NCBI GenBank assembly: GCA_000720995.1
Contig: JOEL01000036.1
Location: 1-64,000, forward strand
Length of the DNA stretch: 64,000 bases
Source of the DNA: Streptomyces celluloflavus
GTDB lineage: Bacteria > Actinomycetota > Actinomycetes > Streptomycetales > Streptomycetaceae
Reading direction: 5' to 3'
Of this stretch, positions 627-17,823 are shown piece by piece. The translations under genes and the position numbers were made by a program. The notes under the pieces are model-generated. The model was not told the DNA's origin. It worked only from the letters and a program-made list of their open reading frames with translations, and searched no databases. Positions within the stretch are counted from its first letter, which is position 1, and each line of letters begins with the position of its first letter.

Positions 627-655
627 GCTGCTGAACGTGACATGGGTGATGTCGG
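627..655. repeat. IS630 terminal inverted repeat, left
   Basis: It shares GCT-CTGAAC at the outer side and GGGTGATGTCGG at the inner side with the reverse complement of 1759..1786. The two copies differ at a few central bases and by one indel. Confidence 0.7.
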
Positions 656-1712: not shown

Positions 1713-1758
1713 GCCCCACAGCTACCGGAAGCAACCGACCACCGTCAAAAGAACAGCG

Positions 1759-1786
1759 CCGACATCACCCGATCAAGTTCAGTAGC
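1759..1786. repeat. IS630 terminal inverted repeat, right
   Basis: Partner of 627..655; it begins CCGACATCACCC at the inner side. It marks the end nearest the transposase start. Confidence 0.7.
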
Positions 1787-1817
1787 GGCTGATGCAGCCT
1801 GATAATGCCGCTGCATC

Positions 1818-2077: not shown

Positions 2078-2109
2078 TGGTTTCCGGGCAGAAGGTCGCG
2101 GAGACTGAC

Positions 2110-2288
2110 GAGCTTGTCCGGTCCCGGCGGCGGTGGGTGACAAACATTGGCCCGCGCGTACGGCCGTTCAGTCGGCGTGGCAGGAGCCGGGCGGTGTCAG
2201 CGTCCCGGTAGACGGTCTCCAGCATGCAGTCCTCGCGGACTTGGCCCCGGTGGCGGGCCTTGGCGCGGGCGCCTTCGGCACTGTATGA
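2110..2288 (-). pseudogene. Tyrosine recombinase/integrase fragment
   Basis: The minus strand reads ARAKARHRGQVREDCMLETV and then DADTARLLPRRLNGRTRGP. This resembles the internal segment of actinomycete tyrosine recombinases in which LLPRLLKGRTRGPVF-like text precedes the catalytic region. No Arg-His-Arg-Tyr catalytic core is present. It appears to be a scrap joined to the neighbouring transposase remnant. Confidence 0.45.
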
Positions 2289-2358
2289 ACAACCTCAACC
2301 GATCTATAAAATCTGACAATTGCTCGCTACTGAATACCTCAACACGCAGGTGGCCAAC

Positions 2359-2997: not shown

Positions 2998-3439
2998 CCG
3001 GACTGGGCTACTGGAATCGTGCGGTGACCGCATTGCTGTGCGCTGACTGCGGGCGGCGGCGTCTTCAAAGACCAACGGCCCAACCATCCGCCCTCATACG
3101 TAACAGCCAACCGGTCCACAGCTATTGGCAATTGCTTCCGAATTCTCGGGGGCAACAGAGCGGTCGGCCACCAGAGGCTGCTCATGGCGCGACCGCTCGA
3201 CCACGCAGCCTGACGGCGCCCCAGATGATCAGTGCTTGCCGAGAGCCGGTGTGAGTACGACCTCGTAGCGCAGGTGCAGTCGACGCCCTGCGAGGAGGCA
3301 CGAGATGCCAAGGCCCTCACTCCCTGCACGCCGACAGACCACCGGTGTGGGCGGCCTGTCGGGGGTGTACTCCCGGGCTTGGCGGCATCCTGCGGCAGCG
3401 GATGCGCTTCAGGATGCCGCCGGGGTGTGCGGGTTGTGG
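2998..3439. other. Intergenic region, nothing recognised
   Basis: This is 442 bases between two convergent genes. No convincing gene, hairpin or repeat was found; open frames here lack ribosome-binding sites and do not resemble known families. Confidence 0.4.
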
Positions 3440-3955
3440 TCAGGCGCCGGGCTGGACCGGGCCGACGAGGGTGCCGGTGCCGACGGTGAGTGGGCCGGAG
3501 GCGGTGGACTCGCCGGGGATCACCCCGTCCGGAGTCTTGAGCGTGAAAGCCGCCTCGTCGGCGGGGACGCCGCCGGCACTGTCGGGGACCTGGATGTCGA
3601 AGTGCACCGGATGACCGGGGCCGAAGTTCACCACCTTGTTCTGCGGGCCGTAGCGGCCGGCGGTGAACTTGGTGAGGGAACCGTGGTGGTAGAACCGCAC
3701 GCCGGTCGGTGATCCGGCCAGCCGGCACGGGCCGTACCCGCGTGCTGCGGTCATGGTGACCCGGTAATGGTGGTGCCCCGAGGTGGCAGGACCCGCGGTG
3801 ATCTTGGCGATGTGGTTCGCCGGACGGCACGCGTAGGGCGCCGGACCGCCCGCCGGCGCGGCCGTCGGCGACGACGCCTGCGCCGCTCCCCCTCCCGCCG
3901 CGCCCACCAGCACGGCGGCGGCAACGGTGACGGCGATCTTCCGGGTGGTTCGCAT
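3440..3955 (-). CDS. Secreted DUF4232-like protein
   Basis: The protein has 171 residues. A Sec signal peptide (basic RTTRK, hydrophobic core, cleavage near AQA) covers about residues 1-28. The mature part contains two cysteines and text such as VRFYHHG and HFDIQVPDSAGG, resembling the DUF4232 beta-sandwich proteins secreted by streptomycetes, whose role is unknown. A start at the second Met (3955) gives the better signal peptide than the one three codons upstream. No operon partner is visible. Confidence 0.7.
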   Translation of the reverse strand: MRTTRKIAVTVAAAVLVGAAGGGAAQASSPTAAPAGGPAPYACRPANHIAKITAGPATSGHHHYRVTMTAARGYGPCRLAGSPTGVRFYHHGSLTKFTAGRYGPQNKVVNFGPGHPVHFDIQVPDSAGGVPADEAAFTLKTPDGVIPGESTASGPLTVGTGTLVGPVQPGA

Positions 3956-4581
3956 CACGAACACTCCATTCCTGCTCGGCGGTTCACGGATGTTCCGCCA
4001 GAACCCTGGTCATCTCCATTCCTCCCCTCCAACCGGACCGAGGAATGTCATAAGTCCGTCACGGCTGCCCCATCCGCCCGTTCCCCAGGGCAGGAAAGTT
4101 CGCACGATGATGCGCTCGGCTGACGACCACGAGCGACGGAATCGGCGTGGGGCATAGCACTGAGCATGCCGTGATGTGACGCGTGCCGGTCCGTTCCTAG
4201 GCGGCCGGTTCGGCGGCCCGAGACCGAATGGGGACTGAAGTCGTGGGGACCGCACGCACGTTCGCGCCTACAGCCGAGCCTGCCTGGACGCAATGCGGCG
4301 ATGGCGAGCCCGTGCGGGGCTGCCCGACCTTTCCCCGCCACGAATCCGGACGACGCTAGCCAACGCGCCTCCATTTCAGGCAAGTTGACAGGCGGGCGAG
4401 TCAACCAATCCGTAGCCGAGGGTCTGCCGACCAGTGCGCTGCCGACCGGCGTAACCGCTACCCGAACCGGCGGAACACGACGACACCGTCCTCGTCATGC
4501 CCCTCCAAGATGCCGACGGCAGCGACACCCACCGCCCCTCACCGCCCACAACCCGGCATCGACGGGGATTCACAAGTGCCC
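3956..4581. other. Intergenic region, nothing recognised
   Basis: About 630 bases upstream of the secreted protein and downstream of the broken SDR gene. It presumably carries the promoter of the former. No gene, repeat or strong hairpin was found. Confidence 0.35.
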
Positions 4582-5407
4582 TCATCCGACCGAGCGCGTA
4601 GCCAGCTCGCCGAACTCCCGGTCCGGCAGTGCCCTGTTGAGCCTCAGGAGCTCCTCGTCGAGCCAGCCGACGGCGTAGCGGGTGTCCGGGTGATCGGACT
4701 CGACGGCCTGCCGTATGGTCTCCGCGACGACGCCGGGATCGGAGCCCTCGATCAGGCCGGTCTTGCCGCGCCGCGCCATGGCCTCGGCCATTTCCCGGTA
4801 GGCATCCCGGCCGGACATCTCCCTCAGCTGCGCAGTCGTCCGGTCCTCGAACTCGGTCTTGATGATGCCGGGTTGGATGATCACGACGCCGACGCCGAAC
4901 CGCGCCGCCTCCATACGGAGGGTGTCCGAGAGTGCCTCCAGAGCGTGCTTTGACGCGTAGTACCAGGCGCCGAGTGGCAGTGCGATCTCGCCGCCGATCG
5001 ACGAGACGTTGACGATCGTGCCGGATCTCTGCTCGCGCATGTGCAGCAGGACAAGTTGGGTCAGCCTGGCCGGTGCGGAGAGGTTGACCTCCAACTGGTC
5101 GCGCGCCCGGTCCAGCGGCACGTCCTCGACGGCGCCGTGCAGGATGGTTCCGGCGTTGTTGACCAGGACGTCGAACCGCTGTTGCTCGTCGAGGACGGTG
5201 GCGGCCACCCGGTCGAGTCCTCCTCGCTCCGCGCGTCCACCTCCAAGGCGTGGCCGCCGGCGGCGCGGATGTCGTCCATCCTGCGCACTCGCCGTGCGGC
5301 GCCGTACACCGTATGGCCCGCGCGCCGGAGCTCCCGTGCGGCGGCCCGGCCGATCCCCGACGACTCGCCGGCGACGCGCCGGTGACCAGGCATGTCTTGG
5401 CCGTCAC
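4582..5407 (-). pseudogene. SDR family oxidoreductase, two frameshifts
   Basis: Three frames together read as one classical short-chain dehydrogenase. The start is TAKTCLVTGAS from a GTG at 5407. SSGIGRAAARELRRAGHTVY follows in a second frame, and VLVNNAG, IVNVSS and the catalytic YxxxK (YYASKHALEAL) in a third. Frame changes lie near 5365-5380 (about 8 extra bases inside the cofactor loop) and near 5215. Its start is 3 bases after the P450 stop, so the two formed an operon. Either the gene is dead or these are sequencing indels; the catalytic half is intact and in frame. Confidence 0.75.
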
Positions 5408-5410
5408 CCC

Positions 5411-6604
5411 CTACACGTCCCAGGTGACGGGCAGCTGGTGCACGCCGTGGATGAGCATGTCGGTACGGAGCGCCACGTCCTCGGCGGGAACCGCCAGGCG
5501 CAGCCCCGGGAATCTGGTGAGCAGTGCGGAAAGCGCCACCTGCATCTCCACGCGGGCGAGTTGCTGGCCGAGGCATTGGTGGACGCCGTGGCCGAAGGCC
5601 ACGTGTCCGCGGGCCGGGCGGAGCAGGTCGAGGGTGTCGGGATCGGCGAAGCGTGCGGGGTCGCGGTTGGCCGTGGGGATCGAGACGGTGACCGTCTCAC
5701 CGGCCTTGATCCGTTCGCCGTGCAGCTCGATGTCCTCCAACGCGGTGCGCACCGTGAACGGGATGATGCTCAGATAGCGCAGCAGTTCCTCGACCGCGTC
5801 GCCGGCGATGCCCGGATCCGCGCGCAGGAGGGCGAGCTGGCCGGGGTGGCTCAGCAGGGCGAAGGTGCCCAGTGCGAGCATGTTGGCCGTGGTGTCCAGT
5901 CCCGCGCCCAGCAGCACGAAGCCGATGTTGACCAGTTCCTCGTCGCTGAGGTCGGCGGCGGTCAGGTCACTGAGCAAGTCGTCGGTGGGCGCCGCCCGCT
6001 TGGCCGGCACCAGCTCGCCGAGGAACTCCTGCACCGCCGCGTAGGCCGCCCCCGTCCGCTCCGGCGAGGAGTCCAGGCGGGACATGTCCAGCGCCTGCCT
6101 CTGGAAGCGCGCCCGGTCCGCGTACGGCACGCCGAGGAGTTCGCAGATCACCTGCGCGGGGACCGGCTGCGCCAGGGCCTCCACCAGATCCACCGGGCAG
6201 TCGCGACGCTCCATCGCGTCGAGGTGCTCGGCCGTGATGTCCTGGATCTGCTCGGTGAGCCGGCGCATGCGCCGCACGGTGAACTGGCCGGTGAGAAGAC
6301 GGCGGTAGCGGGTGTGCTCCGGTGCGTCCAGGGCGTTGAAGAATCCGGGCGGCGCGGGCCGGTTGCCGCCGGGGACACCCGCGATCGGCACGTGCCTCAG
6401 CTCGGCCCGGACGCTGAACCGCGGGTCGGCCAGCACCTCACGTACGAGGACGTGGCTGGTCACCAGCCACCCCGCGTGCCCGTCCGGGTAGTTCAGCCGG
6501 CTCAGCGGACGCTGCTCGCGCAGCTCGGCCAATCCTGCGGGCGGGTCGAACGGCCGGTCGGCCGGCCGCGCGGTCGGCAGTGAAGTGGTCACGTCGGTCT
6601 CCAT
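5411..6604 (-). CDS. Cytochrome P450
   Basis: The protein has 397 residues, the usual bacterial class I size. The I-helix reads GAGLDTTANM, the ExxR-type region is EELLRYL, and the haem loop is FGHGVHQCLGQQLAR with the Cys ligand at about residue 344. The family oxidises small molecules using ferredoxin electrons; no ferredoxin gene is adjacent. It shares an operon with the broken SDR and diverges from the MarR-type regulator. ATG 6604 was preferred over an in-frame GTG at 6610; neither has a clear ribosome-binding site. The substrate is unknown; bacterial relatives often act in secondary metabolism. Confidence 0.9.
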   Translation of the reverse strand: METDVTTSLPTARPADRPFDPPAGLAELREQRPLSRLNYPDGHAGWLVTSHVLVREVLADPRFSVRAELRHVPIAGVPGGNRPAPPGFFNALDAPEHTRYRRLLTGQFTVRRMRRLTEQIQDITAEHLDAMERRDCPVDLVEALAQPVPAQVICELLGVPYADRARFQRQALDMSRLDSSPERTGAAYAAVQEFLGELVPAKRAAPTDDLLSDLTAADLSDEELVNIGFVLLGAGLDTTANMLALGTFALLSHPGQLALLRADPGIAGDAVEELLRYLSIIPFTVRTALEDIELHGERIKAGETVTVSIPTANRDPARFADPDTLDLLRPARGHVAFGHGVHQCLGQQLARVEMQVALSALLTRFPGLRLAVPAEDVALRTDMLIHGVHQLPVTWDV

Positions 6605-6770
6605 CCCCACGCATCATTTGCGATGGGCGAAACGCTAGGACCGTGTTTCGCGTAGCCGCAACCGTTCATCTGTGTTCCAGCAGGTAGGAGCGGTATCGTC
6701 GGCGCAATGACATTGCGGCTGAATGCACTGACCGCTGCGATCGGCTTCATGTGACGGACAGGAGGACGGA

Positions 6771-7466
6771 GTGCCGGGCGGTCGTCTGACCCACGAGGAG
6801 CGTCAGTGTGTCGCCGCCGGACTGGCAGCGGGGCTCAGCTACGCCGAGATCGCCCGCCGGCTGGGGCGCCCCGGGTCCACCATCAGTCGCGAGGTCGGGC
6901 GCAACGGCGGGGCCCGCGGCTATCGGGCGAACCAGGCACAGCAGGCGACCAAGTGGCGGGCCCGCCGGCGCAAGCCGCACCCGGCCACGCCGTCCGAAAC
7001 CGGCGAGCGCGCCCCGCGGGCACAGTACGAGTTCGAGGACAGGTTCGCCGAGATGATGGCCCGGACAGGGGTTCCCGCCATGATGGCCAGGGTCCTCGTC
7101 TGCCTGTTCACCAGCGACACCGGCAGCCTCACCGCTCCCGAGCTCGTCGCCAGGCTGCAGGTCAGTCCGGCCTCCGTCTCCAAGGCCGTCGGCTGGCTGG
7201 AGCAGCGTGGCCTGGTCGGCCGCGAACGCGACGGCCGGCGCGAGCGATACGTGATCGACGACCACGTCTGGTACCAGGCGTGGCAGGTCAGCGTCCGGTC
7301 GATGGCCATGTGGGCAGACTTCACCCAACAAGGAGCCGATCTGTTCGGCAGCGCCTCTCCGGCCGGGGCGCGGCTGCGGGCCACGAGCCAGTTCTTCCAG
7401 CACCTCGGCCACGACATGGCCCAGGCGGCCGAGCACTGGCGGCAGACCCTCTCGGCGCGGCCGTGA
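6771..7466 (+). CDS. MarR/GbsR-type regulator with an extra N-terminal HTH
   Basis: The protein has 231 residues. Residues about 4-47 (LTHEERQCVAAGLAAGLSYA, then EIARRLGRPGSTISREVGRN) form an IS30-type helix-turn-helix (HTH_38). After a basic, Ala/Pro-rich linker, residues about 95-225 form a winged-helix domain of the GbsR/MarR kind, with recognition helix VSPASVSKAVGWLEQRGLV and wing GRRERYVIDD. Two DNA-binding modules in one chain are unusual but known in actinomycetes. The GTG start follows AGGAGGACGGA. It diverges from the P450/SDR operon, the obvious target. Confidence 0.85.
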   Translation: MPGGRLTHEERQCVAAGLAAGLSYAEIARRLGRPGSTISREVGRNGGARGYRANQAQQATKWRARRRKPHPATPSETGERAPRAQYEFEDRFAEMMARTGVPAMMARVLVCLFTSDTGSLTAPELVARLQVSPASVSKAVGWLEQRGLVGRERDGRRERYVIDDHVWYQAWQVSVRSMAMWADFTQQGADLFGSASPAGARLRATSQFFQHLGHDMAQAAEHWRQTLSARP

Positions 7467-7632
7467 GTCCGTCTGGCCCGGCGGCCGGCCACCGCACCGG
7501 AAGCGCTGCGAGACGAGAGGCGTCCCCCGTTCAGGGCTTCGAGTCATCGCAGGCAGGTGCCTCGGCCCGGCACGCGAGCGTCGTGGGACCGGTGTGCCGG
7601 CTCGCGCGGGCGGGTATGGCAGCGTCCCGCCG

Positions 7633-7664
7633 GCCGTCGAGCGGTGCGGCGACCGCTCGACGGC
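7633..7664. terminator. Bidirectional terminator between convergent genes
   Basis: A perfect 13-bp stem (GCCGTCGAGCGGT and its complement) with a 6-base loop lies between the ends of the regulator gene and the ligase gene. It lacks a T-run, as is usual in streptomycetes. Confidence 0.7.
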
Positions 7665-7684
7665 TCGGCACGAGATCGCCTACC

Positions 7685-9349
7685 TCAGGCCTGGGCGGCG
7701 GGCAGCTCCGCGGTGAACTCGACGATCCGGGACCTGCGCAGCACCCGGACGGCCTCTCGCTGGACCTTCCCCGATTCGGTGCGCGGCAGATCGTCCACGA
7801 ACTCCAGCAACCGGACGAGCTTGGGCGCGGGCAGCCGTTCCCGCAGGTGCGCGAAGAGCGCCTCGGCGGTGGCCCGGGTGGCGTTCCACCCGGCGGCGGG
7901 CACGACGTACGCCTTGGGTACCAGTGCTTCGCCCTCGGTCACCGGTACCACGGACAGTTCGGCGACGGCGGGGTGCAGCACCAGCACGTGTTCCAGTTCG
8001 AGTGGGGCGATCAGTGCCCCGTCCGGCCCCTCGAACACGTCCTTGCGCCGCCCGAGATAGACCAGGGAACCGTCGCTGTCCCACCGGGCCAGGTCACCGG
8101 TTCGGTAGAGGCCGCCCGGGGTGTGGCTGGTGGCGTTGTCCTCCGGGTCCAGGTAGCCGCGCATCATGCCGACGGGTTCGTTGGCCAGGTCCAGGCACAG
8201 CTCGCCCTCCTGAGCCGGCTCGTCGGAGTCGGGCCGGACCACCACCAGTTCGTAGCCCGGTAGCGGATAGCCCATGGATACCGGGTCCGCCGGGGAGGAG
8301 GCGGTGACCCCGGCCATGGCGGTGACCTCGGACTGGCCGAACCCGTTGCGGACGGTCACCCCGGCCAGCTCGCGGACCTGCTCGACCACGTCGCCCATGA
8401 GCGGTTCGCCGACGCTGACCGCGTGCCGCAACCCGGGCAGGCCGTCGGGTATTCCGGTGCGGATCAGTGCCCGCCAGATGCTGGGCGGGGCGCAGAAACT
8501 GGTGACCGTACCGGTCCGCAGTACGTCCAGCAGCCGCTGCGGGGTCGCCTCGGCGTTGTCCATGGACACCACGGTGGCCTCGGCGTTCCAGGGCCCGAAC
8601 AGCGAGCTCCACGGGTACTTCGCCCAGGCCGGGGCGGAGACGTTGAGGTGTACGTCCCCCGGTTTCAGCCCGTTCCAGTACATGCTCGCCAGATGCCCGA
8701 TGGCGTAGCTGACGTGTGTGTGCACCACGAGCTTCGGCCGTGAGGTGGAGCCGGAGGTGAAGTAGTAGAACAGCGGCTCGTCGGCCTCGGTGGGTCCCTC
8801 CGGCACGAAGTCGCCCTCATGCTCGGCCGAGGTGGCGAAGTCGGCCCAGCCCTCGTGCTCCCCGCCAACGATGATCTTGGTCTGGAGCCCGTCCACCGCG
8901 AGCCCCGGCACGATCCGGTGGTCGGCGATCACGTGCTTGGCTCCGGCCCTGCCGATCCTGGTGCGCAGTTCCTCGGGCGAGATGGTGATGAAGGCGGGGG
9001 CGACGATGGCACGGATCTTGATCAGTGCGAGCATCAGCTCCCACAGCTCGGTCCGGTTGTCCATCAGCAGCATCACCACCTCGCCGCGGCGCACGCCCTG
9101 CGACAGCAGCCAGCTGGCGACCCGGTCGGAGCGTTGGGAGAGCTCCTGGAAGGTCAGCTCGCCCTGCCCGACGATGCGCAGGGCCACCCGGTCGTTGCCC
9201 TCGGCGATCCGGTCGAACCAGTCGATCGCCCAGTTGAACTGCCGTGGCCGCGGCCACCGGAACGCCTTGCGCGCGGCGTCCTGGTCCTCGGCGTGGTGTA
9301 ACAGGAGGTCCCGTGCGGCCCGGAACTCCCGGTACGCATCGTCTTGCAC
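7685..9349 (-). CDS. Acyl/aryl-AMP ligase (ANL superfamily)
   Basis: The protein has 554 residues. The P-loop is YYFTSGSTSRPK, the adenine motif region GFGQSEVTAM, the hinge YRTGDLARWDSDG, and the catalytic Lys lies in RTESGKVQRE at about residue 528. The overall text resembles benzoate- and aminobenzoate-CoA ligases. It activates a carboxylic acid as an adenylate, then loads it on CoA or, given the neighbouring carrier protein, on ACP (inference). GTG 9349 was chosen; GGGGA lies 10 bases upstream and an in-frame TTG at 9355 is possible. It is the last gene of the five-gene operon. Confidence 0.9.
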   Translation of the reverse strand: MQDDAYREFRAARDLLLHHAEDQDAARKAFRWPRPRQFNWAIDWFDRIAEGNDRVALRIVGQGELTFQELSQRSDRVASWLLSQGVRRGEVVMLLMDNRTELWELMLALIKIRAIVAPAFITISPEELRTRIGRAGAKHVIADHRIVPGLAVDGLQTKIIVGGEHEGWADFATSAEHEGDFVPEGPTEADEPLFYYFTSGSTSRPKLVVHTHVSYAIGHLASMYWNGLKPGDVHLNVSAPAWAKYPWSSLFGPWNAEATVVSMDNAEATPQRLLDVLRTGTVTSFCAPPSIWRALIRTGIPDGLPGLRHAVSVGEPLMGDVVEQVRELAGVTVRNGFGQSEVTAMAGVTASSPADPVSMGYPLPGYELVVVRPDSDEPAQEGELCLDLANEPVGMMRGYLDPEDNATSHTPGGLYRTGDLARWDSDGSLVYLGRRKDVFEGPDGALIAPLELEHVLVLHPAVAELSVVPVTEGEALVPKAYVVPAAGWNATRATAEALFAHLRERLPAPKLVRLLEFVDDLPRTESGKVQREAVRVLRRSRIVEFTAELPAAQA

Positions 9350-9366
9350 GGACAACTTGTCCCCGA

Positions 9367-11280
9367 TCAGTGGAAGGCGTTGGACTTGGCCCGGCGCAGC
9401 ACGCTGAGTGCGATCACGTCGGCGTCTCGGGAGAACGAGGTGTGTACGCCCGGCCGGCCGTTGCCGATCTGGGTGAACCAGCACACCCGCTCGGTCGGGA
9501 TGCCCAGTGCGTAGACGGCCCGGTGCGGTCGGCCGTCGGCGGCGATCACCCGGCGCTCGGCCGGGGTGATGTGCAGTGCGCCAGTTTCGAACACGTCGTC
9601 GGCGTCGCGGTGCACGAACCCGACGGCCAGCCGCTCGTCGACCAGCTGCCGCATCAGCGGATCGGTGTTGCGCAGCAGGCCGGCGGTCGGGATCCGCGAG
9701 TCGATGAGCACGTCGCAGTGCCTGCGCGAGCCCTCGACGGCCGGGGACTCCATGAAGAACCGGCCCTGTTCGGCGTCGCATCCGTGCACCACATCCGGCC
9801 CCACCAGGTCGAGCACCCCGGCGTCGATCAGGGCCAGGAACTGCGCGGTGCGTTCCAGCGGCGGGCCGGTGAAGAGCAGCGAGGTTCGCGAGACGAACCG
9901 GCCGAGGAAGTCGGCCCGATGGGATCGCGGGGTCAGGCCGCCGAAGTCCACGGCGTGCCGCAGCACCTCGCGGGAGTCCCGGATGGCGTCCAGCGCGGCC
10001 TTGAGCGCGCTGTCCACGTTGCCCCGACCGGCCTCCGCGATGTCGGCGAGCAGGATGCGCCGCACCTCGGCGACGAGGCCGGCACCGGAGTCGAACCGCT
10101 TGGCGTGCAACGGTCTGGACAGCTGGTCGAGATTGACCGGCTCCACATCGTCGAGGCCGTGGCGCAGCGCCACCTCGCGCCAGCTCGCCAGTTCCGGGCC
10201 GAGCGCGAGCAGTTCGGCAGCGATCGCCTCGGCGCGCTCCGGCCCGTGCTGGGTTCTTGCCTGGGTGGTGTAGTACACATAGTTGATCTCGGCCTGCAAC
10301 AGGGGAAGCACGTCCTGGTCGAAGTCCAGGGTCGGGTTTCCCCGGTGCGCCACGTTGCGCTCGCGCAGCCGGCCGACGGCGGCCGAGGTGAGGAATTTCG
10401 GCGCGGCGCGGCCGGTCACCGCCTTCTGGTTGCGGCCCCGTGAATGGATCGGTAACCCGCTGCGCGAGCCCGCGACCACCCTGGGTTCGTTGCCGCTGGG
10501 CACGTAGAACATCGCCCCGTCGACGCTCTCCTTGAACTTCCCGCCGCGGCCGACGGTGAAGGACATCAGGATGTCGTAGAAGGACAGGCCGAGCCCCACG
10601 ACTCCGACCGCGGTGCGCGGCGCGATCGAGGACAGCTCCAGGTCGGCGGCCGAATCGCCGCTGAGGTAGTGGAGTTCGGGATGTTCCCGCGCGAACTGCG
10701 CCAACTCGTTCTGCTGCTCGGAAAGTTCCGCCAGGGCGTGCCCGGTGGTGACCACCACCGCGTCGGCGGTCACGGTGAACTCTTCGTCCGATGTGGTCAC
10801 TTGAAGTGTGTAGCTGTCCCCGTTCTCCCGTAACGAGGTCACCTTGCCGACCACCTCGACGACCTCGCCGAGCTCGGACATGTCACGCACCACCGAGTCG
10901 TACACGTACCGCAGGTACCTGCCGTAGGCGTACCTCGGTGCGTAGTCGTCATGGCCCAGACCGGACAGCGCCGGGTCCGGCTGGGTGGGTAACCACTGGT
11001 GGAAGGACAGGCCGGCGCCCGGCCGGCACGGCTCGCCGTCGGAGATCCCGGAGAACATGCTGATCTCACCGACCACGGTGTTCATCAGGAAGCTGGTCTC
11101 CTGGTCGGTGCGCCATATTCGGCCCGCCCCCAGTTCCACCGCGTCGATCAGCCAGATTCTGACCCTCGGCGGCTCCGGCTCGGCCCTCAGATTGGCCGCG
11201 ATCCGCTCGAACACCGAGATCCCGCGTGGACCGGTGCCCACGATCGCGACGTCCAGCACTTCGTCAGTCAGGTGTCGCAC
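9367..11280 (-). CDS. FAD/NAD(P)-binding oxidoreductase (NAD_binding_9 type)
   Basis: The protein has 637 residues. The N-terminal FAD loop is VAIVGTGPRGISVFERI, with FLMNTVVGEISMFSG typical of the large PF13454 flavoproteins, and a second nucleotide-binding loop VGVVGLGLSFYDILMSF at about residue 225. Some members of this broad class are N-oxygenases of amino acids in natural-product pathways; here the reaction is unknown. It is the fourth gene of the operon, ending 17 bases before the ligase start and beginning 32 bases after the TrpB-like stop. Confidence 0.8.
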   Translation of the reverse strand: MRHLTDEVLDVAIVGTGPRGISVFERIAANLRAEPEPPRVRIWLIDAVELGAGRIWRTDQETSFLMNTVVGEISMFSGISDGEPCRPGAGLSFHQWLPTQPDPALSGLGHDDYAPRYAYGRYLRYVYDSVVRDMSELGEVVEVVGKVTSLRENGDSYTLQVTTSDEEFTVTADAVVVTTGHALAELSEQQNELAQFAREHPELHYLSGDSAADLELSSIAPRTAVGVVGLGLSFYDILMSFTVGRGGKFKESVDGAMFYVPSGNEPRVVAGSRSGLPIHSRGRNQKAVTGRAAPKFLTSAAVGRLRERNVAHRGNPTLDFDQDVLPLLQAEINYVYYTTQARTQHGPERAEAIAAELLALGPELASWREVALRHGLDDVEPVNLDQLSRPLHAKRFDSGAGLVAEVRRILLADIAEAGRGNVDSALKAALDAIRDSREVLRHAVDFGGLTPRSHRADFLGRFVSRTSLLFTGPPLERTAQFLALIDAGVLDLVGPDVVHGCDAEQGRFFMESPAVEGSRRHCDVLIDSRIPTAGLLRNTDPLMRQLVDERLAVGFVHRDADDVFETGALHITPAERRVIAADGRPHRAVYALGIPTERVCWFTQIGNGRPGVHTSFSRDADVIALSVLRRAKSNAFH

Positions 11281-11312
11281 GACCTGTCACCACCCATCTG
11301 TAGATCTCGTCC

Positions 11313-12704
11313 TCAGCGCGCTGCCGCGTCCAGGTCGTCCATGGCCGGCAAGCGGCCCAGGGATGCGGCGATCAACTCGTCCGACGCCGCCATGTCGGTC
11401 ATGTTCCCGCTGAGGAACTGCTGGTAGGCCGACAGGTCGAGCAGTCCGTGGCCGCTGAGGTTGAACAGGATGACCTTCTCCCTGCCCTCCTTCTTGGCCA
11501 GCAGCGCCTCGTCGATCGCGGCCCGGATGGCGTGCGCCGACTCGGGGGCCGGGATGATGCCCTCCTCGTTGGCGAAGGTGATGCCGGCCTCGAACACCGG
11601 GCCCTGCGGGTAGGCCACCGCCTCGATCAGCTTCTGGTGGTACATCGCGCTCACCAGGGGGGCGGCGCCGTGGTAGCGCAGGCCGCCGGCGTGGATGCCC
11701 GGGGAGACGAAGGTGTGCCCCAGGGTGTACATCTTGGTCATCGGCGTGATGCCGGTGTAGTCGTTGTAGTCCCAGGCGTAGCGGCCCTTGGTGAGCTTCG
11801 GGCATGCCTCCGGTTCCACCGCGACGAACCGGGTGTCCAGGCCCTCGCGCACCTTCTCGTGGAAGAACGGCAGCGAGATACCGGAGAAGTTGCTGCCCGC
11901 GCCGACCGAGCCGATCACCACGTCCGGGAAGTCGCCGATCGCGTGGAACTGCCGGACCGCCTCCTGACCGATCACGGTCTGGTGCAGCAGGACGTGATTC
12001 TCCCCGCTGCCCACCGAGAGGTTGCAGCGCTCCACCTGGCGGGCGTGCTCGAACGCCTCCGCGTTGGCGATGGACAGGCTGCCGTCGGTGTTCGGGTCGC
12101 GGGCGAGCGCGGCGCGGCCGGCCTCGGAGTTCTCGGTGGGGCTGGAGATGACCTTGGCCCCGTTCATCTCCATCATGATCCGGCGGTAGGGCTTCTGGTC
12201 GTAGCTGACCCGGACCATGTAGACGGTGCACTCAAGGCCGAAGAGGCGGCAGGCGAGGGCGAGGGCCGAGCCCCACTGGCCGGCACCGGTGCCGGTGGTC
12301 AGGCTGGTGATACCGGCCTGCTTGTAGTAGTACGCCTGGGCCAGCGCGGTGTTCAGCTTGTGGCTGCCGGTGGTGTTGGTGCCCTCGTACTTGTAGTAGA
12401 TACGGGCCGGGGTGTCGAGCAGCTTCTCCAGCCGGCGGGCCCGGTTGAGCGGGGTCGGCCGCCAGCGAAGGTACTCCTCGCGCACCGGCTGCGGGATCTC
12501 CACGAACCGCTCCCGGCCCATGCTCTGCCGGTACATCGAGAGCGGGATCTGCGGGGCGACCGCGCCACCGTCCTTACGGGTCTCCGGCCTTGCCTGGCGC
12601 AGCTTCGCCGCGTCCTCGACGCCGGTGAGGTCGGACAGCACGTTGTACCAGTGCGTGGGAACGATTTCTTCAGCGGTCAGCGAGGCTTCTGCCGAATTCA
12701 CCAT
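11313..12704 (-). CDS. TrpB2-like PLP-dependent enzyme
   Basis: The protein has 463 residues, longer than canonical TrpB and typical of TrpB2. The PLP lysine is K116 in GTNTTGSHKLNTALAQ. TGAGQWGSALALAC and SVGAGSNFSGI are the other cofactor loops, and GIIPAPESAHAI carries the conserved Glu. Such enzymes catalyse beta-elimination or beta-replacement on serine-like substrates, classically with indole. No trpA is nearby and the gene sits between an acyl carrier protein and a flavoprotein, so a role in making a modified amino acid is more likely than primary tryptophan synthesis (inference). Confidence 0.88.
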   Translation of the reverse strand: MVNSAEASLTAEEIVPTHWYNVLSDLTGVEDAAKLRQARPETRKDGGAVAPQIPLSMYRQSMGRERFVEIPQPVREEYLRWRPTPLNRARRLEKLLDTPARIYYKYEGTNTTGSHKLNTALAQAYYYKQAGITSLTTGTGAGQWGSALALACRLFGLECTVYMVRVSYDQKPYRRIMMEMNGAKVISSPTENSEAGRAALARDPNTDGSLSIANAEAFEHARQVERCNLSVGSGENHVLLHQTVIGQEAVRQFHAIGDFPDVVIGSVGAGSNFSGISLPFFHEKVREGLDTRFVAVEPEACPKLTKGRYAWDYNDYTGITPMTKMYTLGHTFVSPGIHAGGLRYHGAAPLVSAMYHQKLIEAVAYPQGPVFEAGITFANEEGIIPAPESAHAIRAAIDEALLAKKEGREKVILFNLSGHGLLDLSAYQQFLSGNMTDMAASDELIAASLGRLPAMDDLDAAAR

Positions 12705-12724
12705 TGCTTTTCCGATCCTGTTTT

Positions 12725-12988
12725 CTAGGAATTTCCAACGTGCGACTGGACTAACTTCACGAGATCGCCGACCCGGCTCAGCGCGGCCTCAAAGATCTCG
12801 CTGTCACCGACCTTGATGCCGCACTCGTTCTCAATGCGGACGACAATTTCAAGAATGGTCAACGACTCGATTCCGATTTCATGCAGCTCGTCATCGAGTC
12901 CGATCTCGGCCGGTGCGGACGAGCCGAGTACGGCCGTGATGATCTCGCACACCTGAGCTTCAATGTCAACCTTTTCAGGAGACGTCAA
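12725..12988 (-). CDS. Acyl carrier protein
   Basis: The protein has 87 residues, acidic, four-helix ACP pattern, with the phosphopantetheine Ser at residue 42 in HEIGIESLTILEIV. It starts with TTG at 12988, preceded by GAGGG at a good distance. It would carry an acyl or amino-acyl intermediate as a thioester between the operon's ligase and its oxidising or PLP enzymes. A free-standing ACP next to an AMP ligase is the key sign that the operon is biosynthetic. The stop lies 20 bases before the TrpB-like start. Confidence 0.92.
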   Translation of the reverse strand: MTSPEKVDIEAQVCEIITAVLGSSAPAEIGLDDELHEIGIESLTILEIVVRIENECGIKVGDSEIFEAALSRVGDLVKLVQSHVGNS

Positions 12989-13035
12989 GGTAATCCCTCT
13001 TCCTTGGACGGTTCTTCACTTCGCCGGCCGCTCCG

Positions 13036-13668
13036 CTACGCCATGGGGCCCGTCATCACCGCGGTGCGCAGCCCGAGCACCAGCAGGATCGCCCCGCTCA
13101 CCCAGGCCAGTCCCACCCGCACCGCCGGCCTCGCCAGCAGCCGCCTCACCAGGCCGACGAGGGTGACCACCACCGCGTACCAGGCGGCGCTGATCATGAT
13201 CTGTACGGCGGTCAGCGTGACCACATCGGCGGGCGAACCACCGCCGGGCGGCAGGAACTGCGGGATCAGGGCCAGGTAGACGGTGGCCATTTTGGGGTTG
13301 GCGGCACTGGTGACCAGCCCTGATCGGTAGGACCGCCACAGGGTGGCCGCGCCGTACCCCTCGGGCACTTCCGCCGGCTGGTGGCCGAAGTTCCGCCGGT
13401 TGCGCACCGTCATCACCGCGAGGTAGCAGAGGTAGGCGGCACCGGCCAGCTTGAAGGCGGTGAACACCACCTCAGAGGTCTGCATCAGCGCGGCCAGCCC
13501 GAGAGTGGAGGTCGCGGCCCACATGAGCAGTCCGGTGCTGCTACCGAGAATGGTCACCAGACCGGCCACGCGGCCGAAACGCAATGTCTCGTTCACCAAC
13601 ACCATGAATGACGGCCCCGGCGCGGCCACCATCACGAAAACCGTCGCGATGAAAACCCCACTCACCAC
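13036..13668 (-). CDS. LysE family amino-acid exporter
   Basis: The protein has 210 residues with about six hydrophobic segments. The N-terminal family signature APGPSFMVLVNETLRFG and the later AANPKMATVYLALIPQF are those of LysE/RhtB translocators, which export amino acids and derivatives by proton antiport. As first gene of the operon it probably exports the pathway product, or protects the cell from an amino-acid-like intermediate (inference). About 47 bases separate it from the ACP start. Confidence 0.9.
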   Translation of the reverse strand: MVSGVFIATVFVMVAAPGPSFMVLVNETLRFGRVAGLVTILGSSTGLLMWAATSTLGLAALMQTSEVVFTAFKLAGAAYLCYLAVMTVRNRRNFGHQPAEVPEGYGAATLWRSYRSGLVTSAANPKMATVYLALIPQFLPPGGGSPADVVTLTAVQIMISAAWYAVVVTLVGLVRRLLARPAVRVGLAWVSGAILLVLGLRTAVMTGPMA

Positions 13669-13832
13669 GGGACTACCGCAATTCCAGTCGTCATTCGACC
13701 GGAGTGCGGGGCTAACGCTTGCGCATCCAACCGAAAGGGCCCCTCTCTAAGGTCCGACACCCCCGGCTCTTGATCACCACCCTTAGAACGCTAGCTGCTT
13801 TGGCTGATTCAGGCAACCAGCGCCAAGAACAA

Positions 13833-13861
13833 ATTTCGGTGAGCGCGAAATGTAAATTTAC
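13833..13861. promoter_or_regulatory. Inverted repeats upstream of the biosynthetic operon
   Basis: Two palindromes lie about 170-190 bases before the LysE start: ATTTCG-N7-CGAAAT (13833..13851) and the perfect GTAAATTTAC (13852..13861). The surrounding 13669..14089 stretch is much richer in A and T than the rest of the window and contains no recognisable gene. The palindromes may be operator sites for this operon; no regulator gene is adjacent on this side. Confidence 0.35.
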
Positions 13862-14079
13862 GGACCGATGGGCTCCGGTTTTGGTTACCCCGAAGTACGA
13901 CCACGAAAACACCATGTCGGATGCACCTCTTCAACTGACGCACGCCAGTCATGAGACCGCCCTCGTCCGAGTTCTGGACTAACTGCCCGAGACCACACTT
14001 CATCTTCACAGGCAAGTGCCGCATGGCACTGAGCCACCGTCGCGTGATTCTGTTTGTGTCACTTCGAACTGTTCCTGTC

Positions 14080-14798
14080 CGGTTTCTTCATGTTGGTCCG
14101 GACGAGGCGGACCTCGGCGAGGACCTCACCGGTGGTGACGTACAGGGCGGCGAACGAGTGGAGGCAGTGCCACACGTAGTCGGGGGTGCGCTTCTCGATG
14201 GCCGCGAAGATGGCCGGCAGGAAACGGGCCGGGTCCGGTCCGGCGCCCGGACCCACGTCTCCTCCTCGATGGACCGGACCACCGCACCGCCCGCCAGGGC
14301 CGGATACCGGCCGGCCCGGCGCGCCGGCGGCCTGCTCGGCGAACGCCAGATCCTTCAGATCTTGGAGGCGCCCGAGCGGTTCGGTTTGAGGTTCTCCTCA
14401 CGCCAGACGCGGGCGATGTAATGCCAGGACACCGTGATGCCCTCACGCCGCCTCAGGTATGACGAAAGGGTCCGGGTCGACCAGTGCGTCAGCCCGGAAT
14501 CAGCCGGCGGGGACATCTTCGTCAGCGCGATCACGCGGCCCCGCGTCCGCGGCGGCACCTGGTCGCGCGGCCCGCCCCGGCGCTTCTCCGCCAGCCCGGC
14601 CAGACCGTGGGCGGCATAGCGGGCCTTGCAACGGTCGACCGTGACCGGCGATACCCCGGCGAGTTCGGCGATGTCCTTGCGCCGCCTGCCCTCGCCGGAC
14701 CACAACACGATCCGGGCCCGCAGGGCCACATCGCCCGACACATGACGCGAGGCCGCCAACTCCCGTAAAGCATCCAGCTGTTCAGTGGAGAGAATCAT
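14080..14798 (-). pseudogene. IS630-family transposase remnant
   Basis: From an ATG at 14798 the text is the N-terminal half of an IS630 transposase (ALRARIVLWSGEGRRRKDIA, then winged-helix text ending WHYIARVWREENLKP). The next element, SIEEETWVRAPDRTRPV, is in a second frame and AAIEKRTPDYVWHCLHSF in a third, and the C-terminal DDE part is missing. This copy belongs to a different IS630 subgroup from the one at 627..1786. Confidence 0.75.
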
Positions 14799-15074
14799 GC
14801 TGAGCCCAACGAGCCAACCGGCGTCAGGTTCTACAAACAGGGTCACGGGACACCGGGCATCGATGCGGTTCAGCCAGTGGGAGTTGGCTGTGAGGTCGCG
14901 ATGAATCGGTGTTCGCGCCGAGTTTTTGGCGAACTGGGGGTTGGCGGAGGAGATCGCCTGGGTTGGGCAGGCGCGTACCGCACATGCCCCGGCAGGGGCC
15001 GGGCGGCCGCGGTGGTAGCCCGCTGGAGGCGGACCGGGAAGCGGAATCCCTGCCGGTTTGCCCGCCTCTTGGTA

Positions 15075-15223
15075 CCTGCCAGGTTGCGGCGGCGTCCTGC
15101 TTGTCCGAGCGGGCCGGCACGAGCACCCCGTCCAGGTCCGCGATCACCTGACCGCCTGGGTCCGGGCCGATGTCCCGGCCAGCTTTCCGGACGCGCTCGC
15201 GGGCTTCGGCTGGCGCGTACGGG
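15075..15223 (-). pseudogene. IS1380-family transposase fragment
   Basis: The minus strand reads ARERVRKAGRDIGPDPGG and then VIADLDGVLVPARSDKQDAA. This corresponds to the segment around the first catalytic Asp of IS1380-type transposases (usually V-DLDGVLV-AHSEKQ-AA-TWK). Nothing on either side continues it. The 14799..15074 stretch holds no other recognisable feature. Confidence 0.5.
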
Positions 15224-15256
15224 ATCCGCGCTCCCCCACGCTCCGGACCGGCCGTC

Positions 15257-15433
15257 CTACTTGCCCGCGTGACTGCCCAGGTAGAACAGGAGAGCCAGGA
15301 ACCCCAGCAGGAGATGGCTGCCCGCGATGTAGATGAACACCCGCCAGGACGCGCCCCGCTCCTTCTTGGCCTCGCTCATACCTCCCCCGAAACGGGGCGG
15401 GGCGGCGGGCTCGTCGGTGGTGTCGTCGGTCAT
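15257..15433 (-). CDS. Small single-pass membrane protein (DUF6126-like)
   Basis: The protein has 58 residues. An acidic then basic N-terminus (SEAKKERGASWR) precedes one membrane segment of about 20 residues (VFIYIAGSHLLLGFLALLFY). The layout matches DUF6126 proteins of streptomycetes, function unknown. ATG 15433 is preceded by AAGGAGA, and it overlaps the ArsR-type gene by 4 bases, so the two are translationally coupled. Confidence 0.75.
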   Translation of the reverse strand: MTDDTTDEPAAPPRFGGGMSEAKKERGASWRVFIYIAGSHLLLGFLALLFYLGSHAGK

Positions 15434-15891
15434 GGCTGCTCTCCTTCTCGTAGGGCGCTGGCTTTCCGCAACGTCGGGGGCCGGGGTCCGGCCAGGCACC
15501 GGGCCGCCGTCCGCCCGGTCCGCTCCCCTACCGGTGCGTCCGCCCGCACACCCGCGCCGGGCTGCCGCAGCTGAATCAGCAGGGCTTCCTGCCCCGCCGG
15601 CAGCTCCGCCAAGACTCGCCGGGCCGCTCGCAGCAACTCCGCGACGTACCCGCACGCCAGCTCGTACACCACGGTCGACCCACCCCGGGCCGCGGTCACG
15701 ATCCCCGCCCGGCGCAGCACCGCCAGTTGCTGGGAGAGGCTGGACGGCTCGATCCCGATCGCGGCCGGCAAGCTCCGTACCGGCATCGGACCGTCCTGCA
15801 ACAGCTCCAGGACACGGATACGCACCGGGTGCCGCAGCATCCGGAAGAATTCCGCCTTCGCCTCATACAGCGGAACCTGCGCCCCGCTCAC
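15430..15891 (-). CDS. ArsR family transcriptional regulator
   Basis: The protein has 153 residues. A winged helix spans about residues 12-85, with HPVRIRVLELLQDG, the recognition helix IEPSSLSQQLAVLRRAGIV and wing text GGSTVVYEL. No ArsR-type metal-binding CxC is visible in the DNA-recognition helix, so the effector is unknown. It is the middle gene of a three-gene operon with 4-base overlaps on both sides. The palindrome at 16125..16140 upstream of the operon is the probable autoregulatory operator. Confidence 0.88.
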   Translation of the reverse strand: MSGAQVPLYEAKAEFFRMLRHPVRIRVLELLQDGPMPVRSLPAAIGIEPSSLSQQLAVLRRAGIVTAARGGSTVVYELACGYVAELLRAARRVLAELPAGQEALLIQLRQPGAGVRADAPVGERTGRTAARCLAGPRPPTLRKASALREGEQP

Positions 15892-16076
15892 ACCGGGCTC
15901 GCGTTCCCCGGCCCGCCGTCCGGGTCGACATCCACGCTCGATGCCAGCCGGAGCGCGTCATCCAGATCGTCCTCCGCCACGGCCGGCGCGTACGGATCTG
16001 CAGCCTCGCGCGCCTCCGCCACAGCGACCCGCGCCAAGCGCACCCGCTCCCGCACCGCCTCGGCGTAGCCGCCCAC
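15888..16076 (-). CDS. Small conserved-type hypothetical protein
   Basis: The protein has 62 residues, charged and Ala-rich (YAEAVRERVRLARVAVAEAR), predicted helical and soluble. The GTG start at 16076 has GGAGG six bases upstream, and the stop overlaps the ArsR-type start by 4 bases. No function is recognised; its position as the first gene of an autoregulated operon suggests it may work with the regulator. Confidence 0.7.
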   Translation of the reverse strand: MGGYAEAVRERVRLARVAVAEAREAADPYAPAVAEDDLDDALRLASSVDVDPDGGPGNASPV

Positions 16077-16124
16077 CCCAGACCTCCGCGCTCGGCCCCA
16101 TTGACCATCACGACAACTGGCGAA

Positions 16125-16140
16125 TTGAAGAACTCTTCAA
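16125..16140. promoter_or_regulatory. Candidate ArsR operator
   Basis: The perfect inverted repeat TTGAAGA-AC-TCTTCAA lies 49 bases upstream of the first gene of the ArsR operon. Its 2-base centre and AT-rich arms are of the type bound by ArsR/SmtB dimers, and it stands out in GC-rich surroundings. The adjoining 16141..16484 stretch, up to the end of the DUF1259 gene, contains no recognisable gene. Confidence 0.6.
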
Positions 16141-16484
16141 GTCTAGGTGATGGGGAACGGGCGACATGGCGCGGCACTAGGTAGCGGTGGATGCACACGC
16201 CGATCCGCCTCGGGTCGAACCGAGCCGTACGCCCCCGAGGATGTCGGCAGCCACCTGGCCGGGCCCCTGCCGGCACGACGTTCCTCGTCGGCCACCCGCC
16301 CCGACCGGCCCCGTCCCGCCCGACCCCGGGCGTACCACCGCATGTGCGAGGGCTCCGATCCGGTGCGGCCTACCCTCCACGCGGACGCCCGCGGCGTACC
16401 CGCATCCACCTGCGAGCCGTCCGGGCGACCCAGCCTTGTCGTCAGCGGTCGGGGAGCGCTGCCCAGGCCGGAGCGGCACCCTCC

Positions 16485-17492
16485 CTAGCCCGCCACCCCC
16501 GACGCCGGTGCCATGTTGGTGGCGTCCACCGCGTTCCGTAGCGTCCTGGCCAGTTTCACGGCGTCGTCGACGGCCCAGAAGTGGAGGTAGAACAGCCTGG
16601 GCTCGTCCATCAGCATGTGGTTGTGGAGCGAGACGATGTCGATCCCGCCGCAGCGGAGCGCCTTCACCACGGGCTGGACCTCGTCGGCGGTCATCACGAA
16701 GTCGCCGTTGATCGCCGCCTGTCCCCCGCCGACCGGCTGGAAGGAGAGCGCCGTGGTCGCCCCCGTCATCGGGGGCAGCACCCGGCCGTGGTCGGTGATG
16801 GTCTCGCGACGGGCGAAGACGATCTTGTAGATGTCCCCCTCCGCGGCGCCCTCGGCGCAGAGCGCCGCGTCGATGCCGTCGGTGTCCAGGTCGATGTCGA
16901 CCGGCACGGGGCGCCACGTCCCGGTCGGCGTACCGGTCCTGGACAGCGCCGCGCGCAGCCCCCGGGCCAGCGTCCGCGGATCGTCGCTGACCCCGTGGAC
17001 GTGCAGGAACCAGACCGCGGGCTCGGTGTCGAGCAGATGCTTGTGTACCGCGGCCTGCCCGATTCCGTGCGCGTTCAGGGCGTCGATCACATGCTGGAGC
17101 TCCCGCTCCACGACCCCCACGTCGCCCATCACCGTCGTACAGCCGTCGGCGTACTGGACGAAGGAGAAGAACGAGCCGACCCCCATGGTCTCGTTGAGCG
17201 GGATCCCTTGGCACACCACTCGCAGGTCACGGCGGGGCAGGTCCACCCGGTAGACCATGCCGCCCGCCAGCCTGCCCCGGACTCCCATCACCTCGGAGAC
17301 GCCCCGCCAGTCCTCCTCGGTGGTGGGCACGGACTCGATCAGCTCCTGGCGACGCCCGGCGCGGGTGCCCGCGGCGCGCGCGTCCGCCGCCCCCGCACCG
17401 GCCAGTACCGGCACCAAGGCGGCGGTGGTCAGCACCGCGCGCCGAGATGTGCTCGCCCGCATTCCCTTGTCCCGTTGTCTGTATCCGGTCAT
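16485..17492 (-). CDS. Tat-exported DUF1259 protein (LppY/LpqO type)
   Basis: The protein has 335 residues. A twin-arginine signal (TSRRAVLTTAALVPVLAG) covers about residues 10-42. The mature protein contains two DUF1259 copies, visible as repeated blocks: one with HKHLLDTEPAVWFLHVHGV and one with HNHMLMDEPRLFYLHFWAV. Mycobacterial LppY and LpqO belong to this family; their biochemical role is unknown. The paired His-x-His-containing repeats suggest a metal site (inference). It appears monocistronic. Confidence 0.85.
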   Translation of the reverse strand: MTGYRQRDKGMRASTSRRAVLTTAALVPVLAGAGAADARAAGTRAGRRQELIESVPTTEEDWRGVSEVMGVRGRLAGGMVYRVDLPRRDLRVVCQGIPLNETMGVGSFFSFVQYADGCTTVMGDVGVVERELQHVIDALNAHGIGQAAVHKHLLDTEPAVWFLHVHGVSDDPRTLARGLRAALSRTGTPTGTWRPVPVDIDLDTDGIDAALCAEGAAEGDIYKIVFARRETITDHGRVLPPMTGATTALSFQPVGGGQAAINGDFVMTADEVQPVVKALRCGGIDIVSLHNHMLMDEPRLFYLHFWAVDDAVKLARTLRNAVDATNMAPASGVAG

Positions 17493-17782
17493 GCAAGATC
17501 ACCTCCGCCGCGATGCAACCACGGCCGTACCGTTTCGTCGGGGAGGCGCTCTACAGGCCATCACATGAACCACGTGTCTGCCGGAGTCCACCGCGGACCC
17601 CGCTACGCAGCATCTTCTGCACGAATCAGTCGCGCAAATGCCGCCACGTTGCACGTTCCGAGAGCGTGACTGCCGATTTCTGTTCACGTTCGGACGGCGC
17701 CTCGTCGACATGGCCAGGTACGAGGGCTGAAGGGGTGCGGGGTGATGGGGTACGGGATACCAGGTACGAGGCTCGTCCGCCG

Positions 17783-17810
17783 GGCGCCGGCCCGGTAGTG
17801 GGCCGGCGCC
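17783..17810. terminator. Terminator of the SDR-ADH-ALDH operon
   Basis: A perfect 11-bp GC stem (GGCGCCGGCCC) with loop GGTAGT starts 14 bases after the aldehyde dehydrogenase stop. The remaining 17493..17782 stretch contains no recognisable gene. Confidence 0.75.
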
Positions 17811-17823
17811 ATCCCGCGAACCG

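Follow-up and report, generated by a model that had tools for sequence, protein, structure and literature searches.

A five-gene Streptomyces cassette pairing a carrier protein with a TrpB2 enzyme that has lost its catalytic glutamate, and a possible route to an isoxazolone amino acid

In TrpB, Glu109 (Salmonella numbering) helps to expel the serine hydroxyl and to activate indole, and the TGAGQ loop binds the carboxylate of the amino acid. Engineered TrpBs alter the residue equivalent to Glu109 to accept other nucleophiles, and TrpB2 enzymes favour O-phosphoserine. A second described family related to the present locus is that of the nitrosuccinate synthases, which includes FzmM and CreE. We analysed a window of 64,000 nucleotides from Streptomyces celluloflavus (assembly GCA_000720995.1, contig JOEL01000036.1, positions 1 to 64,000), in which five adjacent genes encode a LysE-family exporter, an acyl carrier protein (ACP), a TrpB2-like pyridoxal phosphate (PLP) enzyme, a flavoprotein and an AMP-dependent ligase (Table 1). 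The folds are all known; what appears to be new is a TrpB2 subfamily without the catalytic glutamate, tied to a carrier protein, in an unnamed cassette. Gene content, conservation, borders, family placement, loss of the glutamate, the pairing of ACP with TrpB2 and the changed flavoprotein pocket were computed. The cassette most likely makes and exports a beta-substituted alanine or another unusual amino acid; a first-pass annotation of this DNA had inferred a small operon with the potential to produce a modified amino acid and export it, a prediction that the gene set and its conservation support.

The TrpB2-like protein belongs to the TIGR01415/PRK12391 sequence family, and among solved structures it is closest to the TrpB2 tryptophan synthases (PDB 6hul, 4qys and 6hte; E from 1.5e-122 to 4.9e-102). 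The TGAGQ loop is intact, but the residue before it, which is Glu in all five printed PDB alignments, is Gly in the window enzyme (Gly138, at a position that presumably corresponds to residue 109 of Salmonella TrpB). The same Gly occurs in nine further copies of the cassette (L023-L027, L130-L132 and the plasmid copy L135; L numbers denote the loci read) and in the related locus L028. Among 99 distinct TrpB2 places, all of which retain the PLP-binding Lys, the catalytic position is Gly in 29, Glu in 67, Asp in two and Ser in one. Four further residues (Ser61, Tyr127, Ala269 and Lys303) are found in 29 of the 29 Gly-type rows and in none of the 67 Glu-type rows; outside these two groups, Tyr127 occurs in a single row among the three with Asp or Ser, and the archaeal 6hul also has Lys at 303. 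In quick trees, from which the Glu/Gly residue was removed beforehand, the Gly group forms one side of a branch with a support of 96 (64 rows) or 95 (98 rows, without L147); in the 99-row tree, the long-branch Ser-type row L147 splits it into a near group of 18 and a far group of 11. Plain tryptophan synthesis was rejected as a function, given the loss of the catalytic Glu here and a second TrpB gene elsewhere in the genome that keeps it (C4:250215-251219). The first-pass annotation was right about the family and about the PLP Lys, the TGAGQ loop and the ACP serine; it had called the motifs of all five proteins intact, overlooking the exchange of Glu for Gly and with it the ACP-associated, Gly-type subfamily. 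Among the other variants, the TrpB2s of L128 and L129 have Asp at the Glu position and no upstream ACP, and are adjoined by genes resembling aldehyde dehydrogenases and short-chain dehydrogenases and by large ligase-containing proteins. The TrpB2-like protein of L147 is highly divergent: it has Ser at this position and TAAGQ in place of TGAGQ, and no ACP was found upstream of it.

An ACP gene lies directly upstream of the TrpB2 gene at 28 of the 29 Gly-type loci, compared to 0/67 Glu-type, 0/2 Asp-type and 0/1 Ser-type loci, and the single Gly-type miss (L137) sits at a contig end with no upstream DNA. An earlier count of records that included duplicates (45 Gly, 37 Glu and 4 Asp) placed an ACP at 44 of 45 Gly-type records, all but L004, which duplicates L060 in a shorter form. 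These loci come from a search of the genus, in which all 45 places were fetched and L146 (a partial match without the motif) was excluded, and from a search of the phylum, in which 188 of 296 genomes matched and the loci read were 30 plus 20 hand-chosen stretches. The ACP profiles were built from the ACPs of Gly-type loci, and an unlike carrier beside a Glu-type gene could be missed by them; a lax search of the Glu-type loci (E up to 10) gave a best match of only E 0.82. Since a profile made from near-group ACPs alone retrieves the far-group ACPs at E 2.8e-9 or better, the association does not reflect self-recognition alone; the reverse profile retrieves the near ACPs weakly, with 15 of 18 below 1e-3 and three at 0.0017-0.0033. 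Among 20 loci that carry the flavoprotein subfamily outside the cassette, the ACP profile used for them detects an ACP solely in L028, which has a TrpB2: the ACP goes with TrpB2, not with the flavoprotein. ACP genes lie upstream of the distant Gly-type TrpB2s (43-46%) in L121-L126, L133, L134, L138 and L139. By eye, the clusters of L121-L126 contain genes resembling nonribosomal peptide synthetases (NRPS), ligases and acyl-CoA dehydrogenases, and one neighbour in L121 is KamA-like (TIGR00238, 125 bits, below the cut-off of 199; no Pfam match).

The flavoprotein has a single strong relative in the PDB, the L-aspartate N-hydroxylase 8cp2 from Streptomyces sp. V2 (E 3.8e-84 over 9-631), with full-length homology and conservation of the cofactor residues Trp51 and Asn62 (8cp2 numbering) together with Arg13, Arg266, Arg276, Arg409, Arg412, Arg416, Arg577 and Arg597. 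The aspartate entry chamber is thus preserved at Arg13, Arg276, Arg416 and Arg577 but not throughout: Asn413 is replaced by Glu, Val571 by Phe, and Arg593 at the tunnel mouth by Leu. According to the study of the 8cp2 enzyme, its N413E mutant no longer hydroxylates aspartate, whereas V571F remains active with the aspartate KM raised to 4 mM (PMC10404684). The window protein is therefore most likely an N-oxygenase, but not one acting on free aspartate. The family placement made at first pass agrees with 8cp2 as the closest solved structure, but missed this pocket change; the claim of intact motifs fails here too, where two substrate-site positions differ from 8cp2. Glu413 is found in all ten cassettes, and L028, the other locus with ACP and TrpB2, has Asp there; of the 19 subfamily members that show no TrpB2 in the stretch read, none has an acidic residue at this position. 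Asn413 is kept in five of the five members read of a 36-38% group, including the strain's own paralogue on contig C5 (these residue counts exclude the flavoprotein rows L003 and L048, at 30% identity and without the Arg cluster). A substrate lacking one carboxylate, for example beta-alanine, would fit the altered site.

No nitrosuccinate lyase is encoded in the cassette, as had been remarked before; the same genome has a predicted one on C5 (NF052556, 751 bits, cut-off 650) beside the Asn413 paralogue. At this locus (L047, C5:15500-35000), two AMP ligases accompany the predicted synthase and lyase of nitrosuccinate. One ligase is weakly similar to the diazotase AvaA6 (91 bits, cut-off 975), and the locus is predicted to be a separate cluster of the N-N or diazo type.

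The 20 flavoprotein loci outside the cassette, which are the best matches of the flavoprotein search plus L054, place this subfamily in other pathways. Thirteen of them carry the S and E genes of glutamate (methylaspartate) mutase, accompanied by a ligase in 12, and in nine of these thirteen the mutase E part and the flavoprotein share one open frame; the remainder are five loci with isopropylmalate-type genes, L028 and L054, which is cut by a contig end. From this arrangement, early oxidation of small amino acids seems likely for the subfamily, with the product passed on to a ligase. An example of the fusion is L036:9057-12242, where the domains of mutase E and of the PF13454 N-oxygenase lie in one frame and mutase S and ligase genes adjoin; the frame is likewise fused in L033, L035, L037, L039, L042, L043, L045 and L046. 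Such a fusion implies an N-oxygenase for 3-methylaspartate. In L032, L034, L038, L040 and L041, the flavoprotein gene is near homologues of 3-isopropylmalate dehydratase and synthase, with isochorismatase-like genes, by eye, in some; these loci presumably represent a further pathway of N-oxidation.

The ACP and Gly-type TrpB2 also occur without the flavoprotein, as in L127:6053-13857 from a genome (G477) of the same phylum and another class. There, the ACP-TrpB2 pair is followed by a relative of prolyl-ACP dehydrogenases (4irn, E 1.5e-112), an adenylating ligase with a full-length match to the proline ligase 6o6e (E 1.8e-101) and an esterase, and a LysE gene lies nearby on the opposite strand. 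L127 is a possible pathway to a carboxypyrrolyl-alanine. L115-L118 resemble it and lie, by eye, beside NRPS-like genes; the L115 dehydrogenase matches RedW/PigA models below their cut-offs. Across these operons the ACP and TrpB2 are the constant part, and the changing part is the one that makes the carrier-bound acyl unit.

A general scheme, to which we give slightly better than an even chance, is that TrpB2 couples an acyl unit, N-oxidised and bound to the carrier, with a unit derived from serine; the chemical steps and the product are all inferred from the comparisons above. The flavoprotein would N-oxidise a small amine acid (beta-alanine or aspartate-like) to an oxime or nitro acid, and the ligase would load the N-oxidised C3 acid on the ACP. 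N-oxidation probably precedes loading, because the ligase is nearest to acyl-CoA synthetases: its best PDB match is the 4-hydroxybutyrate-CoA ligase 8biq (E 2.7e-81) and the first amino-acid adenylation domain is 6mfy (E 1.5e-35). For this reason, an identity as an amino-acid ligase was rejected. The Gly-type TrpB2 would then form the aminoacrylate from serine or O-phosphoserine and couple it to the acyl carbon adjacent to the thioester on the carrier. The oxime oxygen could attack the thioester, releasing the product without a thioesterase by closure of an isoxazol-5-one ring, and LysE would export it. The esterase of L127 could release its product; the cassette encodes no release enzyme, which agrees with a product that frees itself through ring closure.

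Carried to a product, this scheme leads tentatively to TAN-950 A, a 4-alanyl-isoxazol-5-one. The full reading, in which the cassette is the TAN-950 A pathway and its TrpB2 represents an undescribed subfamily that lacks the indole-activating Glu and uses carrier-bound carbon nucleophiles (an isoxazolone precursor here, a pyrrole-type acyl unit in the sister operons) in making new beta-substituted alanines, has a probability of roughly 0.3. To our knowledge, no bacterial gene cluster has been assigned to TAN-950 A or to its isomer beta-(isoxazolin-5-on-2-yl)alanine, for which the plant enzyme is of the cysteine-synthase type. The first-pass annotation knew of no named pathway for this gene set and missed the known compound that fits it. 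A review gives TAN-950 the structure beta-(isoxazolin-5-one-4-yl)alanine, with Streptomyces sp. A136 as its source, and pea extract is stated to form the isomer from O-acetylserine and isoxazolin-5-one (PMC9293202). Leaf beetles contain both isoxazolin-5-one and 3-nitropropanoate compounds, and an incorporation of beta-alanine is reported in these insects, there called unpublished, which is the sole help for beta-alanine as the substrate (PMC4839037).

Several points weigh against the isoxazolone reading. The pocket residue speaks against free aspartate without identifying the substrate, and beta-alanine is a guess; in addition, N413E appears in the text and figure of the mutant study, but its Table 2 prints N413A (PMC10404684). 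Phe571 is shared by every subfamily member read and thus not specific to the cassette, and the V571F mutant stays active. Whether the flavoprotein stops at the oxime or goes on to the nitro level is not readable from sequence. Carbon-carbon coupling by a Gly-type TrpB2 is a proposed activity, and adjacency of the ACP could instead mean an aminoacyl-ACP substrate. The L127 ligase matches NRPS adenylation domains better (up to 1.5e-133) than the proline ligase, so that proline is itself a putative substrate. Finally, the split that L147 causes leaves a single origin of the Gly-type enzymes probable rather than secure.

Two competing explanations alter the oxidation step. Were the flavoprotein to make 3-nitropropanoate, as might be expected from its closest solved relative, which oxidises aspartate three times to yield this compound, the ligase and ACP would carry the nitro acid and TrpB2 would use its nitronate carbon to give a nitro amino acid or a lactam derived from it. 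We consider this unlikely: Glu413 and Phe571 match mutations that abolish or weaken aspartate oxidation, and a chain that failed to cyclise would meet no release enzyme in the cassette. Oxidation may also come last, with ligase, ACP and TrpB2 first building the beta-substituted alanine. Glu413 could then bind the extra ammonium of the larger amino acid, and the pairing of ACP with TrpB2 rather than with the flavoprotein would be accommodated; this order is nevertheless quite improbable, as the company of glutamate mutase in 13 of 20 sister loci, fused through its E part in 9/13, points to a small early substrate, and 12 of those 13 loci have a ligase but no TrpB2 in the stretch read.

A different objection concerns the TrpB2 itself, which might not catalyse beta-replacement at all but eliminate or rearrange an ACP-borne amino acid, for example in the manner of a dehydratase. 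The observed loss of the residue that activates the second substrate in tryptophan synthase and the strict pairing with a carrier protein speak for such a role; yet the intact TGAGQ loop suits a free amino acid over an aminoacyl thioester, and the acyl unit provided in the sister operon is apparently of the pyrrole or pyrroline type, making this role rather unlikely. Least credible by far, and very improbable indeed, is a nitrous-acid pathway of the cre/fzm type, in which the flavoprotein, a member of the same protein family, would make nitrosuccinate on the way to a diazo product or an N-N bond: the cassette encodes no lyase, and the genome's predicted lyase lies beside a different paralogue that keeps Asn413. 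On these grounds, together with the altered pocket and the separate predicted pair on C5, a supply of nitrosuccinate or nitrous acid was rejected.

Independently of its chemistry, the cassette looks like a self-contained unit that has moved between genetic backgrounds. The order lysE-ACP-TrpB2-flavoprotein-ligase is found in nine further records, which are mutually distinct (DNA identity at most 95.5%), in contrast to the concern that the set might not be conserved elsewhere. Scanning the genome contigs of GTDB with the flavoprotein yielded 35 candidate stretches and five loci (L023-L027), all in Streptomyces (NBC_01306, S. zagrosensis, S. diastatochromogenes, S. coffeae and SID10853; 81-86% identity) and 5/5 with the same gene order. 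Three more cassettes at 95% identity (L130-L132) come from a TrpB2 search of 392 genomes of the genus of the window, and the ninth (L135), generically annotated, was found in PLSDB on the 616-kb plasmid p1 of S. angustmyceticus (NZ_CP104318.1, 405739-411692), which is predicted to be non-mobilizable. In the border test, which covers eight of the nine records, homology starts at 7687-7695, the ligase stop codon, and extends beyond lysE on its upstream side by about 75-265 bp, to 13745-13934, in 8/8. Beyond the cassette, there is no other match to these eight in window positions 1000-24000 at E 1e-5, and they share no flanks with the window. It is these common borders and unshared flanks that suggest a moved unit, which the first-pass annotation, treating a real gene set as an operon alone, did not recognise, and the position of the borders suggests that nothing else is needed in cis. 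The match of the plasmid copy, which was outside this test, spans query bases 28-6132 of 6136. By eye, flanks are shared within L131/L132 and within L026 (S. coffeae) and the plasmid copy; on the plasmid, and by eye in L026, the next genes form a cluster of pabB, 3-deoxy-D-arabino-heptulosonate 7-phosphate synthase and AMP ligase genes.

As for the neighbours in the window, the cytochrome P450, short-chain dehydrogenase and helix-turn-helix (HTH) regulator genes at 4582-7466 were rejected as cassette members, since homology ends at the ligase stop in 8/8. The regulator-like protein (6771-7466, plus strand) has an HTH_38 domain and a MarR-type winged helix. Just upstream of the cassette lies the apparently incomplete N-terminal part of an IS630-type transposase (14355-14846, minus strand; NCBIfam 69.5 bits, cut-off 100). 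An RNA regulatory element was also rejected, with 0 Rfam matches in 4000-18000.

The five tightly spaced leftward genes reported at 7685-13668 are confirmed: all are on the minus strand, with gaps of 47, 20, 32 and 11 bp from lysE to the ligase. In relatives, the lysE start codon aligns at 13671, and the gene is possibly one codon longer; the TTG start of the ligase was picked by hand, the mechanical open reading frame reaching 9781 and overlapping the preceding gene. All five proteins exceed the Pfam gathering score for their own family, and selection has kept the five genes, as dN/dS is 0.087-0.367 in 40 of 40 gene comparisons between the window and eight other cassettes. Among the matches listed, no NCBIfam model scores above its cut-off for the exporter, ACP or flavoprotein, nor for the ligase among the best 25 of 98 matches, and TrpB2 passes just two general TrpB-like models (among 25 of the 26 matches). 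The ACP has a PP-binding domain, and its phosphopantetheine Ser is conserved in the window, six listed homologues and the plasmid copy.

Table 1. Features of the cassette in the window, with scores against family cut-offs
Feature	Position	Strand	Details
lysE, LysE-family exporter	13036-13668	minus	PF01810, 102 bits (cut-off 25.6)
ACP	12725-12988	minus	TTG start; PF00550, 45 bits (cut-off 20.8); phosphopantetheine motif GIESL
TrpB2-like PLP enzyme	11313-12704	minus	TIGR01415, 555 bits (cut-off 519); NF009057, 633 bits (cut-off 366)
FAD/NADPH N-oxygenase (flavoprotein), aspartate N-hydroxylase (nitrosuccinate synthase) family	9367-11280	minus	PF13454, 123 bits
AMP-dependent acyl ligase	7685-9355	minus	PF00501 and PF13193; TTG start
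Presumed promoter region moving with the cassette	13672-13820	minus	Conserved blocks; upstream homology in 8/8 cassettes

In the literature searched, the terms isoxazolone and Streptomyces biosynthetic gene cluster never occur together, subscription journals being mostly outside the search and a published pathway therefore possible. TAN-950 itself occurs in one paper of this literature. Nitrosuccinate, acyl carrier protein and tryptophan synthase were likewise not found together in this literature, which also gave nothing relating TrpB E105 to the choice of nucleophile, nothing related on pyrrolyl-alanine and, in the search for mutase, no title on N-oxygenase clusters. The accessible part of a 2025 review of 3-nitropropanoate derivatives does not mention Streptomyces (PMC12383939). 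If the proposed scheme is correct, an amino-acid antimetabolite would be accessible through just five genes in one compact, movable cassette, and its TrpB2 would be a natural branch that functions without the catalytic Glu in partnership with a carrier protein. As TrpB is a main tool for making non-standard amino acids, natural enzymes that take non-indole, carrier-bound carbon nucleophiles would be useful and open to direct testing. The comparison also sorts the N-oxygenase paralogues of this genome into a lyase-linked form and a TrpB2-linked form with an acidic pocket residue.

Set against the described systems, the cassette shares with the nitrosuccinate synthase 8cp2 full-length flavoprotein homology, Trp51, Asn62 and the Arg cluster, and differs from it in Glu413, Phe571, Leu at 593 and the missing lyase partner. 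With the glutamate mutase clusters (13 of L029-L046), it has in common the flavoprotein subfamily and, in 12/13, the ligase, but those clusters have the mutase in place of ACP and TrpB2. The operons of L115-L118 and L127 have the Gly-type TrpB2 directly after the ACP gene, with LysE near in L127; there, however, the acyl unit would come from an enzyme of the prolyl-carrier-protein dehydrogenase type and an amino-acid adenylating ligase, and an esterase-like gene follows. Compared to the TrpB2 synthases 6hul, 4qys and 6hte, the family, the PLP Lys and the TGAGQ loop are the same, whereas the cassette enzyme has Gly for Glu and an adjoining carrier protein gene. With respect to TAN-950 A and beta-(isoxazolin-5-on-2-yl)alanine, the gene set of the cassette could, on paper, make these compounds.

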